Positions 32,661 through 41,397 of a stretch of 64,000 nt of DNA are shown here, piece by piece (position 1 is the stretch's first letter; each line of letters opens with the position of its first letter). A model generated the notes under the pieces. It was not told the DNA's origin and made no database searches. It saw only the letters and a list, made by a program, of their open reading frames with translations. Origin of the DNA: Athalassotoga saccharophila (GTDB taxonomy: Bacteria; Thermotogota; Thermotogae; Mesoaciditogales; Mesoaciditogaceae); contig NZ_AP019551.1 in the NCBI RefSeq assembly GCF_009936215.1, positions 837,501-901,500 of the forward strand, given 5' to 3'. The position numbers and the translations under genes are program-made.

Positions 32661-33143
32661 TTAGAACGCAAGTCCAAGTCCTCCTTCAACACCGAATTTC
32701 TTTGAAGGCGTGAATCCCTGAATGAAGATCAGTTCTGAAGCACCGGCAAAGATCTGGATTCCTCCAAGAGAGAATTGCACACCTCCTCTGGCATAGAAAG
32801 AGTCCTGCTTTATATTTATCGAAGTGCCTAAAATCGAGATCACAGGAGCAACACCTGCGTATATTGACAAATTTCCCATTGGAATGCAAAGGTACACGGA
32901 TGGCATTATCTGAAACGATGTGAAATTTCCCGCAAACAGCGCATCATTTTCGATCATGGCCGCGATCTCAAAACCTATCAAACTTTCGCCTATCGATCGA
33001 ATCGTCGCACCAATCCACACAGTGGAGGATGTTGGCATCTCTATTGCTCCAAAAATCCCCACGCTTGTTTTAGAAAAGCCTGTCGTTGATATACCAAGGA
33101 TCAAAATTGAGACCAAAATGGTAAAAAGGATATACTTTTTCAT
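32661..33143 (-). CDS. Hypothetical exported beta-barrel-like protein
   Basis: A 160-residue exported protein with a signal peptide (about 1-24, ending GFSK). The rest alternates hydrophobic and polar residues with many glycines in short strands (SIYAGVAPVISILG, FYARGGVQFSLGGIQIFAGA) and ends in GGLGLAF, a terminal phenylalanine as is usual for outer-membrane barrels. I do not recognise a family. The ATG at 33143 follows AAGGTGGTGA; the in-frame GTG 12 bases earlier lies within that site. Co-transcribed with the VWA lipoprotein. Confidence 0.65.
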   Translation of the reverse strand: MKKYILFTILVSILILGISTTGFSKTSVGIFGAIEMPTSSTVWIGATIRSIGESLIGFEIAAMIENDALFAGNFTSFQIMPSVYLCIPMGNLSIYAGVAPVISILGTSINIKQDSFYARGGVQFSLGGIQIFAGASELIFIQGFTPSKKFGVEGGLGLAF

Positions 33144-33156
33144 CTCTATCACCACC

Positions 33157-34754: not shown

Positions 34755-35315
34755 GTGAAAGGCATTTTTTGGATTATGTTTTTTTGCCTGCCAGTACTTA
34801 TTTTTGGCGAGACCATTTCGATATACAAATACGATGAAACAAGTGCAACATGGATTTTGGTAAATCAAATTTCAATTGCAAGTGCCCAGGCAAGCGGGAT
34901 TTTCACAACGACCATGATCTCGGGCAATGTCGGAGGATTTATACCGATAAGTCTATGGCAATCTCGGTATGGAAGGATAGAGATGAAAGTGGAAATAACG
35001 CAATCTTTGACTGCAAGGATTTCTTTCAGCCCATACACTGATATAAGCGCGAAGGTGAACGGTGGATGGATAACTGACGATCTTTACGTAAGTCTTAAAT
35101 CCAACGACTCGCTTAATTTCGATTATGCGGTCTCGAGAAATGATGTATCTCACCATCTTACGGCTACTTCACCCGTTCAGCAAAGTTTTTCCGGTAAATT
35201 CGAAAGAATAAGAATGACAACGGGCAACCATGAATTGTACCTGTATCTTGGTTATCAAGAATCTGTCTTTGTCGGTCCGATTATAGTCGACACTTACGTG
35301 GTGCCGGACATATAG
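34755..35315 (+). CDS. Small secreted protein, paralogue family member 1
   Basis: Exported protein of 186 residues: signal peptide about 1-18 (cleavage near FGE), then beta-rich sequence without cysteines. Family unknown to me. It shares a layout with the proteins at 35329 and 36045: a SIYKYDETSATWILVNQ opening like IFTWNTTQNSWVQV of the third, a central V-x-(I/V)-(T/S)-Q pattern leading to a strand pair, and a C-terminal strand. GTG start at 34755 after AGGGGTGAG; the ATG one frame off is followed at once by a stop. First gene of the envelope locus. Confidence 0.65.
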   Translation: MKGIFWIMFFCLPVLIFGETISIYKYDETSATWILVNQISIASAQASGIFTTTMISGNVGGFIPISLWQSRYGRIEMKVEITQSLTARISFSPYTDISAKVNGGWITDDLYVSLKSNDSLNFDYAVSRNDVSHHLTATSPVQQSFSGKFERIRMTTGNHELYLYLGYQESVFVGPIIVDTYVVPDI

Positions 35316-35328
35316 GGGGGATGGAAAG

Positions 35329-35784
35329 ATGATCAAATACATGATTCTGATTTCTTTGATCCTGTCGTCGATCGCCTTTGCCAACAATGCAACTTCAACA
35401 GTTTACGTCTCGATTCAGTACACGTCGATAAATATTCACGTTAACATGCCTGGTCAGTGGATGATTGGAGATATGCAAATACAAATGGATGTAGATCATG
35501 CACCGATAGATATCGAATTTGCCGCAAGTGGAAATCTTACTTCTGGCACAAACTCAATACCTACTTATTACCATATTTACGATGGGAACAACACATCTTA
35601 CGTTCCAAGTCAGCCTCTTAATTCAAACGCTTGGCAAACTCCTTCCGAGTTAAACTCATTCAGCATGACGCGCGGAATTGGAAATCATATCTTCAAGATA
35701 TGGTTTGCGATGGACGTTTCACGATCTGTGCCTAAAGGGATATATACCTGCTGGATTCAAATGAGCATAGCGCCCCATCCATAA
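35329..35784 (+). CDS. Small secreted protein, paralogue family member 2
   Basis: Exported protein of 151 residues with signal peptide about 1-18 (ending IAFA). Mature part begins near TSTVYVSIQYTSINIHVNMP, the best conserved stretch of the family (compare IYISIQYLNYIMHVDIPG at 36045), then a Gly/Asn/Ser-rich middle and a C-terminal strand ending KGIYTCWIQMSIAPHP. It lacks the N-terminal module of the other two, so it is a short form. SD AGGGGGG upstream of ATG 35329. The ending (kGxY, strand, P) recalls WxL-type surface domains, but that is only a hint. Confidence 0.65.
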   Translation: MIKYMILISLILSSIAFANNATSTVYVSIQYTSINIHVNMPGQWMIGDMQIQMDVDHAPIDIEFAASGNLTSGTNSIPTYYHIYDGNNTSYVPSQPLNSNAWQTPSELNSFSMTRGIGNHIFKIWFAMDVSRSVPKGIYTCWIQMSIAPHP

Positions 35785-35847: not shown

Positions 35848-36044
35848 CTACCGGCCACCCGCCACGTGCTATTTTGCTGATTACCGATCACGCTTTACTG
35901 TTTTTTCTACATGCTACCGGCTACAAGCCATGCGCTTGTTTTTGCTGTTCACCAATCTTGGCACGCATCTTGCTAAGTACAATTGAGAAGTCTTTTTGGT
36001 GGCCACCGAAAGATAGATCAAAGATCGATAAGGGGTGATAGGAA
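35848..36044 (+). other. Non-coding intergenic mosaic
   Basis: No gene seen. It holds repeated short words (CCACGTGCTA twice, CATGCTACC, TGATTACCGATCACGCTTTAC) and copy 2 of the 45-bp repeat. The 21-base word at 35878-35898 recurs with two mismatches at 45860-45880. Confidence 0.6.
35932..35976 (+). repeat. 45-bp intergenic repeat, copy 2
   Basis: Exact second copy of 34675-34719, again upstream (about 70 bases) of a small secreted-protein gene. Confidence 0.9.
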
Positions 36045-36755
36045 ATGAAAAAAGTTATACTGTTGGGTATGCTTGCGCTGCTCGTTGTCGGGGTAATAGG
36101 CATTGCACAAACTAATATCCCAATCTTTACATGGAATACAACCCAGAATTCTTGGGTACAGGTTACTAACACCGTATTCGCATCTGCAACCGGAGAAAAT
36201 ACCTGGTCGACCGGCGGACTTGCGACATCTGTTCAGGTTCCAAACGTAGGTTACTTCATCGTACTTCCAGCAACTCCGACATGGTTCGAACTTCCAAGGA
36301 TAAACTGGACACTCAACGTCAGCCAGTGGATATACATAAGCATTCAATATCTTAATTACATCATGCATGTTGATATACCGGGAGATTACACCCTCGACAG
36401 TTTCACAATTCATGTAATGACAAACGGTGGAGTTTTTGCCTACTTCCGGACGGGAGGAAATCTCAGCGGTGGACCTTCTGGGGCCGGATCTATTCCGACA
36501 TGGCTTGGATACAAAGTTGATGACGCAAGTGTGCCAGGAGTTGGGCTTCCGGCAAATGGTGCAAACAACAGTTTCTGGTATGATATGGCATACATAAATG
36601 CGAATTACGGATCCCCAGCGCAAAAGATAACACTTTATGGTCCCAACTATTGGGAACATACATTCTACGGATGGCTTGGCTTCAGGGTAAATTACCAACA
36701 GCCAAAAGGTCAATATTCGACATATCTTGACATATTCATTCAATCCGATCCATAA
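36045..36755 (+). CDS. Small secreted protein, paralogue family member 3
   Basis: Exported protein of 236 residues; signal peptide about 1-21 (ending IAQ). It carries IFTWNTTQNSWVQV, then INWTLNVSQWIYISIQYLNY and MHVDIPGDYTLDSFTIHVM, a Gly/Ser-rich loop GGNLSGGPSGAGS, and the C-terminal strand after PKGQYSTYLDIFIQSDP. Aromatic residues are abundant and there are no cysteines. No catalytic motif seen; a structural or adhesive surface role is likely. Ends in a strong hairpin terminator, so it may be made in larger amounts than the downstream genes. Confidence 0.7.
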   Translation: MKKVILLGMLALLVVGVIGIAQTNIPIFTWNTTQNSWVQVTNTVFASATGENTWSTGGLATSVQVPNVGYFIVLPATPTWFELPRINWTLNVSQWIYISIQYLNYIMHVDIPGDYTLDSFTIHVMTNGGVFAYFRTGGNLSGGPSGAGSIPTWLGYKVDDASVPGVGLPANGANNSFWYDMAYINANYGSPAQKITLYGPNYWEHTFYGWLGFRVNYQQPKGQYSTYLDIFIQSDP

Positions 36756-36770
36756 CATCTAAGTCTTTTC

Positions 36771-37190: not shown

Positions 37191-38831
37191 ATGAAAAAGT
37201 TATCGATATTTGCAATCTTAACCTGCCTTGCGATAAGCGCTTTTTCTGTTACCTACAATCTTGGACTGAGTCCTCTTAAGACAGAAGTCGAGATGTACCC
37301 CGGAGACATTCAGACCTTTGAATTAAATCTTGTCAATGGCACACTTGCAGATGTGAATTATCAACTTGAGATCGGCGCATTCATGCTTGACAAAAATGGT
37401 GCCTATATATATCTTACGAAAGATTCTACTTACACTTTCTCCTGCGCAAAATGGATAAAATTTCCCAACAACGAAACTAACGTTAACGTTCGCGCATTGC
37501 AAACGTCCAAAATTCAGGTTAGCATTGAAGTCCCGCGATCTGTAAGATATGGCGGTGATTATTACGCCATGATATGGGCAAATTTCATACCAAAGGAGAA
37601 CACGCCCACATCTTCAAATGCGACGGGTACCGGAATTTCGATAGAAAGACGCTTTAGGTTCGGAAGCATAGTCCACGTTACGGTCAAAGGAAGGCCTGCG
37701 AATTCAAAATTGACGTTAGACAAGATAGAAATCGTGAATTTGGATGTAATGGCAACTTCAACGCAAAGAGGCTTAAGAAAAAGAGGCTTAAGAATAAGTG
37801 CGATCGTCAAAAATTCTGGCGATACCTCATTTAGACCGACGGGCGATTATCTTATCATTTCTTCCGACAACAAAGTCTGGGGCAGAGGAGATCTTATGAT
37901 GGATCGTACAGATCTTGTCATGCCTCAAATAGAAAGAGAGATGTACGCGCTTTACGATAGGTCTTTGCCGGCCGGCGAGTACACGGTCAAGATAAATTTA
38001 AAATCTGGAGAAAGATTCTTAAATCATAAAGAGGAAACCTTTTCTATAGTAGAGTCTACATCTTCATCTAAACCTTTAGACGTCAATGTTTTGCTCTCAC
38101 CTTCTGAAATAACGGGCGATGTTAAGGCAGGCAGAAATCAAATGGGAAAGTTCGAACTTTCAAACAGGGAATTTTCGACGATATCAGCCACGATCGACGC
38201 GGTTACGCTTTCTATGGACGAAAATGGCTACTGGATCTTTGGATCTCGAATCGATGACGTTAAATTGTATCCCGATAACTTTACCCTAAGAGAGGATCAA
38301 AAAAGAGTCATTCCTTTCTCATACAAAGTGTCGCAAGACGCGACAGGTCTTTACGCGTTCGCCTTAAGAATAAAAACATCGGCCGAAAATTCTTCAAACC
38401 TTTCTACCTTTTATATTCCCGTTATGATGAGAATAATCGGAACGACACGATACGGCTTTGAAATAACGAATGTGGAAAAGATAATGCCTTCAACGCCAAC
38501 GGACAAAGCATTTTTGAGAGTGTGGATAAAAAATACCGGAAATACCTTCACCAATTTCAACATAATTTACGACATCGTAGATCCGCAGATGAATTATCTG
38601 ACACTTCAGGCACAGTATCTTTCGGAATCTGGATTTTCGATCTTCCCATCTATCGAGAGATATGTCGATATTCCCATAGGAAATTACAAAATATCCAAAG
38701 CCGGCGAATACCGTATTCCGATGATGATAACTTACAAAGGTGACAAGAATTCAAATCAGCAGATAAAGACCGAGATCACATTTGAGATAACCCAGGACGA
38801 TCTTGTCAGGATGGGAAGTGTTCAATCATGA
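37191..38831 (+). CDS. Exported Ig-like protein with internal duplication (WxLIP/DUF916-like)
   Basis: Exported protein of 546 residues, signal peptide about 1-19. Residues about 25-130 (LSPLKTEVEMYPGD, LDKNGAYIYLT, EVPRSVRYGGDYYAMIWA) resemble the peptidoglycan-binding Ig-like domain of WxL-interacting proteins. A second copy lies at about 300-400 (LLSPSEITGDVKAGRN, MDENGYWIFGS, KVSQDATGLYAFALRI), each followed by a further beta-sandwich region. No membrane anchor at the C-terminus, unlike Gram-positive DUF916 proteins, so it should be periplasmic or surface-bound. It overlaps the next gene by four bases; a chaperone or scaffold for the small secreted proteins is possible but unproven. Confidence 0.65.
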   Translation: MKKLSIFAILTCLAISAFSVTYNLGLSPLKTEVEMYPGDIQTFELNLVNGTLADVNYQLEIGAFMLDKNGAYIYLTKDSTYTFSCAKWIKFPNNETNVNVRALQTSKIQVSIEVPRSVRYGGDYYAMIWANFIPKENTPTSSNATGTGISIERRFRFGSIVHVTVKGRPANSKLTLDKIEIVNLDVMATSTQRGLRKRGLRISAIVKNSGDTSFRPTGDYLIISSDNKVWGRGDLMMDRTDLVMPQIEREMYALYDRSLPAGEYTVKINLKSGERFLNHKEETFSIVESTSSSKPLDVNVLLSPSEITGDVKAGRNQMGKFELSNREFSTISATIDAVTLSMDENGYWIFGSRIDDVKLYPDNFTLREDQKRVIPFSYKVSQDATGLYAFALRIKTSAENSSNLSTFYIPVMMRIIGTTRYGFEITNVEKIMPSTPTDKAFLRVWIKNTGNTFTNFNIIYDIVDPQMNYLTLQAQYLSESGFSIFPSIERYVDIPIGNYKISKAGEYRIPMMITYKGDKNSNQQIKTEITFEITQDDLVRMGSVQS

Positions 38832-39958
38832 AAAAGATTATCATTTTGTCTATTTTTTTGATAATTTCAATTTCCATTTTTGGAAAACTTATAAATGAAT
38901 CCTTTTTTGAAATGGATCTCAGACAGGCGCTAAGCCAGATCTCTTACGATACGGGCGAGACCATAATAGCAGATGATTCCGTTGGAGGGTACGTGACAAT
39001 AGATCTAAAAAATGTAACCATCGATCAGGCGCTCAACCTTTTGCTTTTGGCCGGGGGATATTCGTGGACAAAGATAAATGGAGTATATTTTGTTTCTTTG
39101 GCGACCCCATCGAGCGATAAATTCATGTACTTTTCAACGACAACAAAGTACAAAAGCCTAAATTATAAAGCATCCGATATAGTGTCTCTGCTTCCTGCCT
39201 ACATGAGAAAGTACGTAAACACATCGGGCGATCCTTATGTCCTGACGGTAACCGCTCCAAAGGATATGTCGGATAAGATAATTTCTTTGATAAAGACTTT
39301 AGATCTTCCGAAAAGGGAAGTGGAACTTGAGATAACCGTTGTCGAAACTGACGAGAATACATTTAGAAAATGGGAAAGAAACTGGGTATATAACTCAACA
39401 TCAACGGGTACGGCAAGTTACTTTTCGATATCCAACGAATGGTTCACAACAAACATTTTAACTCCTCTCGGACTTTTCTCTGGTAGTTTCAATCTAAACA
39501 AGTCAAGTGAAGATCTCAAACTTCTTTCTCAATCAAATGTAAAGGCTATAAACGGAATGCAGTCCAAGATCTTTTCCAAAACGATAAGATCTTACCAGTA
39601 CGTGCTTAACGGGAATACTTATTACAAAGAGATCCCGATAGGAATCGAGACGACTATTACACCAACCATAATGGGCGACAAAGTCGTACTTGATGTTTTG
39701 GAAGCGCTTTATTCGTCTGAAGATGTAGGTCAGGATATTCCCACCGCCGTTCAGCAGGGCATTCAAACGTCCATAGCGATCCCCGTCGGAGGAAGAATAT
39801 CCGTTGCGGCGATGAGTTTTACATCTCTTTCGTCCGTTGAATCGAAGATACCCGTGCTTGGAGACATACCGATAATCGGAAAATTTTTTACCCAGTTGGA
39901 TTACAAAGATGTTCTCAAGCGTGTGATCCTCTTTGTCTCGGTAAAGGCAGGTGAGTAA
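38828..39958 (+). CDS. Short secretin (type II/III secretion outer-membrane pore)
   Basis: Exported protein of 376 residues: signal peptide 1-19, secretin N0/STN domain (about 25-80, FFEMDLRQALSQIS and TIDQALNLLLL), an N1-type domain (about 105-165, ending IKTLDLPKREVELEITV) and a compact secretin domain with the hallmark VPVLGDIPIIGKFF near the C-terminus. It is much shorter than GspD or PilQ and lacks extra N domains. Its export partner genes (ATPase, inner-membrane platform, pilins) are absent nearby. It would make an outer-membrane channel, perhaps for the small secreted proteins upstream. Confidence 0.85.
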   Translation: MKKIIILSIFLIISISIFGKLINESFFEMDLRQALSQISYDTGETIIADDSVGGYVTIDLKNVTIDQALNLLLLAGGYSWTKINGVYFVSLATPSSDKFMYFSTTTKYKSLNYKASDIVSLLPAYMRKYVNTSGDPYVLTVTAPKDMSDKIISLIKTLDLPKREVELEITVVETDENTFRKWERNWVYNSTSTGTASYFSISNEWFTTNILTPLGLFSGSFNLNKSSEDLKLLSQSNVKAINGMQSKIFSKTIRSYQYVLNGNTYYKEIPIGIETTITPTIMGDKVVLDVLEALYSSEDVGQDIPTAVQQGIQTSIAIPVGGRISVAAMSFTSLSSVESKIPVLGDIPIIGKFFTQLDYKDVLKRVILFVSVKAGE

Positions 39959-39959
39959 G

Positions 39960-41345
39960 ATGAAAAGATTGACATATTTAGCGATAATTCTCATCTCGAC
40001 AATTGCCTTTGGAATTGATTTTTCCTTTTCAGGTGCCGATCTAAGAAATGCGATAAATGACATAGCGAGAACTTACAACATTCAGGTCATACTTGCAGAT
40101 GATGTGACGGGCACCGTCGATATGACCTTTCAATCTTCAAACTTTGAAGATGCCTTGCAGAAAGTGCTCATGTCTACCAATTACGCCTTTGCAAAGGTTG
40201 GAAATGTATATCTTGTCGGAAGCATGAATTCGCCCGACAAGGTTCGCGCAACGATTTACAAACCATCCATGATCTTTCTGAAATACGTTAGTGCCAAGGT
40301 TACCTATGACCTTTTGGGAGTACTTTCGAAATACGTACTTTACTCGCCCAATTCGAATATTTTACTCGTAGATGCGGATGATCAGACAAAGAATGAAATA
40401 GCAAGTATGATTTCTCAGATAGATCTTCCGAATGAAAATAGATTTTTCTATTACGAAATCCATGAGATGAATTCAGACGAATATCAAAGATTCAGACAGA
40501 TAGAACAGATAAACAAGTCGGGAATTTTAACATTTTCCGGCACTTCCTTTGAGATTTTCAGGGAGATAATGAAGATAAATGGTAAGAGCGATATATTCGG
40601 CAATATCACAATTCAAACAATCGGAGAAGGGACTGTGAATTTGGCAGATCCGAAATTTGCGATGAAAGTTAAATCGAACCAGAACACGGTAAATGTCTCT
40701 TTAATAACAAGCACTAATGCGATCCAGATCCCTTTGAGCGATCAGAACAGCCGTGCGGTGGCAAGTGCCCAGAGTGGAGGAAAGAATTTCCTTGTTTTCA
40801 TAGGCTTTGCCGACAACATAAAGTCTGATTTTGCACTTGAAAGTCAAAAAGCACAAAACAAACTTGGGTTGAATCTCTTTTACGATCAGACTAATTCCAA
40901 AATACTCAGCAGCGTAAGTTATGGATCGACAGAACTTTCTATAATTGGAGAGATTTACAACTTCCGTACTTCTCAGGGAACGACTGGAATCTTTGTCGGA
41001 GTTGAGGGTAATCTTATAGATCAGATGTACGGTAAAATCGTTTTAGGCCTTGAAAATATGACTCCAATGGTGAAATTCGGAATCAAAGATACAACATCGA
41101 TCGGATTTTTAATGCTAAGGGGAGAACTTTGGAACGAGATGACTTTAAATGGGATAAATCCGTTTAAAGTTTCTGCGGGTGTGGGAATGGATCTTTGGAA
41201 TATAGAGGTGTTCGGTGGGATAAGGGGGGAATTACAAACTGCCGGACCTTACATAGAGATAGGCCTGAACTACGAATGGATTCGGGCAAAAATTTTGTGG
41301 GCAAATGGTTATACCTTTGGAGGAGGCATAACCATGAGTTGGTGA
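39960..41345 (+). CDS. Secretin paralogue with N0-N1 domains and a non-secretin beta-rich C-terminus
   Basis: Exported protein of 461 residues: signal peptide about 1-18, N0-type domain (FSGADLRNAINDIARTYNIQ, FEDALQKVL) and N1-type domain (VDADDQTKNEIASMISQID) closely parallel to the preceding secretin. After residue about 290 there is no secretin signature; instead repeated amphipathic strands (LGLNLFYDQ, STELSIIGEIYNF, GIFVGVEGNL, YGKIVLGLENM) ending in GGGITMSW, as in an outer-membrane barrel with terminal aromatic residue. ATG at 39960 follows GGCAGGTGAG. Unusual architecture; function unknown. Confidence 0.7.
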   Translation: MKRLTYLAIILISTIAFGIDFSFSGADLRNAINDIARTYNIQVILADDVTGTVDMTFQSSNFEDALQKVLMSTNYAFAKVGNVYLVGSMNSPDKVRATIYKPSMIFLKYVSAKVTYDLLGVLSKYVLYSPNSNILLVDADDQTKNEIASMISQIDLPNENRFFYYEIHEMNSDEYQRFRQIEQINKSGILTFSGTSFEIFREIMKINGKSDIFGNITIQTIGEGTVNLADPKFAMKVKSNQNTVNVSLITSTNAIQIPLSDQNSRAVASAQSGGKNFLVFIGFADNIKSDFALESQKAQNKLGLNLFYDQTNSKILSSVSYGSTELSIIGEIYNFRTSQGTTGIFVGVEGNLIDQMYGKIVLGLENMTPMVKFGIKDTTSIGFLMLRGELWNEMTLNGINPFKVSAGVGMDLWNIEVFGGIRGELQTAGPYIEIGLNYEWIRAKILWANGYTFGGGITMSW

Positions 41346-41371: not shown

Positions 41372-41397
41372 GTGGCCGTGAAAACGGCCACTTTTTT
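41372..41397 (+). terminator. Terminator of the secretin locus
   Basis: Stem GTGGCCGT-GAAA-ACGGCCAC (41372-41391) followed by TTTTTT, a textbook Rho-independent terminator 27 bases after the last gene of the locus. Confidence 0.92.

Follow-up and report, generated by a model that had tools for sequence, protein, structure and literature searches.

The window, by which we mean the whole stretch of 64,000 nucleotides that was analysed, belongs to a 2.04 Mb genome of a Thermotogota lineage (G000 in our survey) and carries on its plus strand a run of genes of which the hybrid gene, our main subject, is the last. Three small secreted proteins, all candidate substrates, are encoded at 34755–35315, 35329–35784 and 36045–36755 and match the subA profile at 5e-34, 1e-41 and 5e-58, respectively, all three being among its 10 seeds; for the second an iterative search without signal peptides gives 5.3e-36. 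They are followed by the gene for an exported Ig-like protein of 546 residues (37191–38831), the stop of which overlaps the start of a mini-secretin gene (38828–39958) encoding 376 residues with a signal peptide, N0, N1 and the secretin core (PF00263, E 7.2e-14). The hybrid gene itself (39960–41345) is an open frame for 461 residues with an ATG start, immediately preceded by AGGTGAG, which overlaps the end of the secretin gene; a longer alternative would start from an in-frame GTG at 39951. Directly after it, a terminator-like stem-loop followed by a T run (41372–41391, plus strand; consensus match only) likely marks the end of the operon. Promoter-like sites are no more frequent here than in shuffles. 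Two frames on the minus strand may also be mentioned: a 246-residue ORF (36018–36758) antisense to the third small secreted gene, probably spurious, and a 164-residue one (32661–33155) with a hydrophobic N-terminus and a GLGLAF end, possibly a small outer-membrane barrel.

The hybrid protein appears to consist of a putative signal peptide, N0 and N1 domains, a diverged middle and a 12-stranded barrel, and this anatomy, modelled barrel fold included, is a well-supported prediction. The sequence-only reading had taken it for a paralogue of the upstream secretin that kept N0-N1, and here it was right. With the secretin as phmmer query the hybrid is found at E 1.5e-13, an N0-N1 profile matches it at 1e-22, and hhalign against the family profiles of the neighbouring secretin gives 99.9% over residues 1–187, a stretch that includes the DLP(K/N) junction, which the two proteins do share (LDLPKREVELEI in the secretin and IDLPNENRFFYYEI in the hybrid). 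The Pfam STN match of the hybrid (3.2e-6) lies a little below the curated cut-off, and STN is found in 19 of the 21 members of the hybrid family at E 0.1. Structural comparisons, here and below, were made with VIA on AF2 models. N0 (residues 19–87, 40014–40220) superimposes on XcpQ (4ec5) with a Z of 10.0 and 1.8 Å over 72 residues, and N1 (residues 101–155, 40260–40424) on GspD (5wq8) with a Z of 9.3 and 1.7 Å over 58 residues, Z being about 10 for N0 or N0-N1. Judged by these sequence comparisons, the resemblance of the two N0-N1 regions is far beyond chance, and the N-terminal half of the hybrid is a secretin base.

The pore domain was held to have been swapped for another beta-rich domain, and this part of the earlier reading stands only partly. 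PF00263 is undetectable in all 21 hybrid homologues (Pfam, E 0.1), and the (V/I)PxLGDIPxxGxLF segment, which reads IPVLGDIPIIGKFF in the neighbouring secretin, is missing, just as had been claimed. The exchange is not clean, however, since about 125 diverged residues remain between N1 and the barrel. This middle beta domain (residues 160–285, 40437–40814), with strands in the AF2 model, is possibly a diverged and reduced secretin core: its first strand aligns with the first secretin-core strand in hhalign, and its fold weakly resembles that of InvG (104 residues at an rmsd of 7.8 Å, Z 7.6). By sequence profile, residues 160–285 do not match the secretin core significantly (hhalign 1.0% vs 0.3% for reversed controls).

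The barrel-like strands ending in W that had been noticed in the sequence, and placed about rightly within residues 280–461 of the 461, correspond to a 12-stranded beta barrel in the model (residues 301–460, 40860–41339). The AF2 model of the whole protein is of middling quality (mean pLDDT 75.9) and weak around the last strands, while the last 176 residues (286–461), folded alone, reach a pLDDT of 87.1 and a pTM of 0.76 with 12 strands. The best VIA match of this domain is the autotransporter BrkA (Z 18.8, 1.9 Å over 164 residues), followed by EspP (18.1), AIDA-I (17.7), Hbp (17.7) and NalP (17.4), with FapF (17.1), KdgM (15.9), the NanC porin and intimin further down the same list. These values are well above background, since models without a clear match usually give a best Z of 7–8. 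By Foldseek the domain resembles a designed 12-stranded barrel (TM 0.68/0.67). An even-stranded barrel has both its ends on the same side of the membrane and the model is therefore compatible with a periplasmic N0-N1. The hybrid ends in ...GGGITMSW, and an aromatic residue (F, W or Y) stands at the C-terminal end of 18 of the 21 aligned homologues, as against 0/19 secretins and 41/229 control ORFs of at least 200 residues, a control set that includes some hybrid homologues. Among non-seed, untruncated hybrids three of nine match the barrel profile at E 0.01 and all nine have the aromatic end. The strand amphipathicity of the barrel (2.92) was reached by none of 5000 shuffles; it does not discriminate the barrel, because the strands of N0-N1 (2.33) and of the middle (2.47) score nearly as high. 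An outer-membrane 12-stranded barrel is, from the modelling, a well-supported prediction for the C-terminal domain. Two outcomes had been named that would overturn the sequence-only reading, a C-terminal half modelling as an ordinary if divergent secretin domain and a model with no outer-membrane barrel, and neither arose; the former is ruled out by the lack of PF00263 in the family, the insignificant core profile match and the barrel model.

We surveyed 103 genomes of the heat-loving Thermotogota and, after dropping two short fragments, found 70 mini-secretin loci in 59 of them. At 68 of the 70 the next gene downstream, in the same orientation and separated by -1 to 152 nt, is a third gene that encodes either an N0-N1-barrel hybrid (35 loci) or a shorter type of protein (33 loci). 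The two exceptions are a locus of G084 (L110, 4073–5232), where the mini-secretin is broken into two frames and then followed by an intact hybrid, and one of G076 with a 286-residue ORF weakly matching the barrel. Hybrid places number 48 and hybrid frames occur in 38 genomes; full-length orthologues share 42–68% identity, and many positions, as far as the final W, are invariant. The genome of the window holds a second full set of Ig-like, secretin and hybrid genes (L005 8636–10222, 7467–8621 and 5954–7486, at about 1865954–1870222 of contig C1), flanked by small secreted proteins of another family. One scan of genome contigs gave 11 loci, all in records of Mesoaciditoga, Mesoaciditogaceae, Thermotogae or Thermotoga. 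The gene order of the module and its conservation across the phylum are computational observations. Elsewhere in the survey, canonical secretin domains were seen within unusually long frames of about 3900 residues (G055:C5:209283 and G057:C52:36651).

The shorter third genes have kept another piece of the secretin. N0-N1 was absent from the members checked, and the secretin core is found in them by hhalign at 90.8% (1.2e-6; 0.1% for the reversed control), by the secretin-core profile in three members (2e-5 to 9e-4) and, weakly, by PF00263 in 5/16 proteins. Their last residue is aromatic in 15 of 16 cases; a PDB sequence search with this type gave no match. The barrel of the hybrid and the corresponding part of the short type are related only weakly by hhalign (15.8% vs 0.7% for the reversed control), and comparisons of whole profiles give 35.5% and 22.1%, so that homology of the two is at this level only suggestive. 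The third genes thus retain different secretin pieces before a C-terminus that is a predicted barrel in the hybrid and a putative one in the short type.

The neighbouring secretin is likely of the kind from which the hybrid descends. In a tree of N0-N1 a single branch splits 28 secretins from 25 hybrids (support 71/95, present in 72% of bootstrap trees), and none of 500 label shuffles scored as low as the observed arrangement; this sequence tree fits, with moderate support, a single old duplication behind the hybrids and not repeated recent ones. The hybrid does not invariably accompany a neighbouring secretin gene, as at 13 of the 48 hybrid places no listed mini-secretin lies directly upstream: ten of these are in family f7, one is in G050, one is the broken-secretin locus of G084 and one is on a contig of G009. 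Nine of the ten f7 genomes with a separated hybrid have a mini-secretin elsewhere, accompanied by a short-type third gene. A genome search found no mini-secretin in G047, where the hybrid (L042 7655–9085) has no adjoining Ig-like gene. In G050 (C19, L048 7287–8851) a secretin remnant of 92 residues precedes an intact hybrid, and a complete set, its third gene of the short type, is found elsewhere in that genome (L047). The mixed or capped channel suggested by the sequence-only reading is thus hypothetical: the adjacency at 68 of the 70 loci favours a partnership, but, since hybrids occur away from mini-secretins, an obligate mixed pore of the two proteins is doubtful. At five f7 loci (L040, L042, L043, L050 and L051) genes that look by eye like response regulators and kinases follow the hybrid, which may be plain synteny.

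The Ig-like protein of the window has a weak WxLIP_PGBD match (PF06030, 4.8e-4, under the cut-off) and a Thermotoga-type homologue has it over the cut-off (8e-8); we regard the protein as a candidate periplasmic chaperone or cell-wall linker. The small secreted proteins, compared as mature parts with signal peptides removed, form three profile families that are only partially linked (hhalign 40.7% for subA-subB and 1–3% for the remaining pairs). An iterative search from the 36045–36755 protein, again with signal peptides removed, reaches families f4, f11 and f2. Of the 26 untruncated mini-secretin loci considered, 15 have small secreted relatives beside them at E 1e-4, most with seed members among them, and the other 11 show no family match; non-seed matches are those at L098 (8e-54), L100 (3e-25) and L109 (2e-6). 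Pfam gives them just weak, chance-like matches and no family name. A cognate inner-membrane platform does not lie near either copy of the set, and a distant one is conceivable: the only T2SSF gene of this genome (C1:1180071–1181036) is far from both and about 6 kb from a large secretin (1174306, a frame of 944 residues), and T2SSE is matched over the cut-off at two places, 981635 and 991680.

We propose, with confidence that is about evenly balanced, that the hybrid, anchored by its barrel, partners the mini-secretin in an export or assembly module specific to the Thermotogota, in which the anchoring or gating role and the small-protein substrates are hypothetical. In this scenario the hybrid would insert into the outer membrane through its barrel, and its N0-N1 would touch the N0-N1 ring that the mini-secretin of this operon forms, and would thereby anchor, guide or gate the ring, no lipoprotein pilotin being needed. 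The Ig-like protein would serve as periplasmic chaperone or wall linker, and the small secreted proteins of the adjacent genes would be what the secretin-hybrid pair exports or assembles, without a dedicated inner-membrane platform. We infer the physical pairing from gene order, because the third gene adjoins the mini-secretin at nearly all loci, and count in favour of the proposal also the N0-N1 homology and fold, the barrel model, the N0-N1 tree, the second full set in this genome, the small secreted relatives at other loci, the distance of the only T2SSF gene and the terminator-like site right after the hybrid. Against it weigh the mismatch in stoichiometry between a secretin ring of many subunits and a one-chain barrel, the f7 hybrids away from a mini-secretin gene, the partial linkage of the small-protein families and their lack at 11 loci, and the weak barrel homology of hybrid and short type.

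What else could such a protein do? Its nearest folds are autotransporter and FapF barrels, small secreted proteins are encoded nearby and some hybrids exist without an adjoining mini-secretin, all of which would suit a barrel that is itself the actual conduit, of the FapF or autotransporter type, with N0-N1 as a docking or substrate-receiving adaptor and the mini-secretin serving another step. A shared fold is, however, no proof of function, with KdgM, the NanC porin and intimin in the same list, and the near-constant pairing with a mini-secretin suggests that the secretin is the main pore; we consider the conduit role rather unlikely. Since N0 has the STN fold (with matches to FoxA, FecA and PupA), the hybrid might instead be a surface receptor or sensor, its N0-N1 taking the part that STN has in signalling by TonB-dependent transducers, and the response-regulator-like and kinase-like genes beside it in f7 would agree with this. 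In those loci, however, the gene order runs on into housekeeping-looking genes, Pfam shows no plug or TonB-receptor match and, to our knowledge, STN transducers do not retain N1 as the hybrid does, which makes such a role improbable. That the hybrid is a decaying secretin copy without function, as its unrecognisable pore domain might suggest, is hardly credible: full-length frames would not be expected to stay conserved in a decaying copy, and hybrid frames are found in 38 genomes, with invariant residues to the last W in full-length orthologues and a confident barrel model, while in G050 it is the secretin that is a remnant and the hybrid that is intact.

Taken further, the barrel-anchored partner that we prefer would be part of an undescribed secretion or surface-assembly system specific to Thermotogota, in which an Ig-like chaperone and a mini-secretin act together with a barrel-bearing partner derived from a duplicated secretin (lineages retaining either N0-N1 or the core, plus the C-terminal barrel), with no inner-membrane engine and with small phylum-specific surface proteins as substrates. 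This wider view is tentative, and we would not yet favour it as a whole. A 2016 survey gave Thermotogae as the sole diderm clade without any of the secretion systems searched for, and allowed that toga-adapted ones may exist (PMC4793230). The conserved module of secretin and barrel, which has small secreted proteins of its own beside it, offers a concrete candidate. TM1117 and TM0088 are given as pilQ in Thermotoga (PMC5637354), and we infer that TM1117 is the Thermotoga mini-secretin of the module; the main text of PMC3387000 mentions neither TM1116–TM1119 nor a secretin. Our literature search, which covered mostly non-subscription papers, found no description of the module and leaves such absence unproven. 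If the proposal is true, secretin base domains can also operate when attached to a separate barrel made by one chain, a point of relevance to the way in which secretins get to the outer membrane and seal it.

With the secretins (GspD, PilQ, InvG, HofQ) the hybrid has in common the signal peptide, N0 and N1, and it has one as gene neighbour; they carry the PF00263 pore domain and the LGDIP segment, while the hybrid is without both and has its own predicted 12-stranded barrel instead. Autotransporters such as BrkA, EspP and NalP have a 12-stranded C-terminal barrel like that of the model (Z 17.4–18.8 over 162–167 residues, at 12–13% sequence identity), but they carry a passenger domain where the hybrid has N0-N1, and no Pfam autotransporter domain was matched among the 21 hybrid members at E 0.1. 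FapF, a secretion barrel for functional amyloid with small surface subunits, may be comparable, its barrel fold resembling that of the model (Z 17.1), and we know of no N0-N1 or secretin partner in it. The TonB-dependent receptors FecA and FoxA also combine a periplasmic domain of the N0/STN kind with a barrel in the outer membrane, but their barrel has 22 strands as against 12 in our model, they have no N1 that we know of, and the hybrid family has no Pfam match to the TonB plug or receptor barrel. Omp85 differs in its 16-stranded barrel, and the hybrid family has no Pfam match to POTRA. In its way of working only, the module is reminiscent of chaperone-usher systems, with an Ig-like periplasmic protein, small secreted subunits, outer-membrane assembly proteins and no inner-membrane engine in the operon; in place of the usher, the outer-membrane parts here would be the secretin and the N0-N1-barrel protein.
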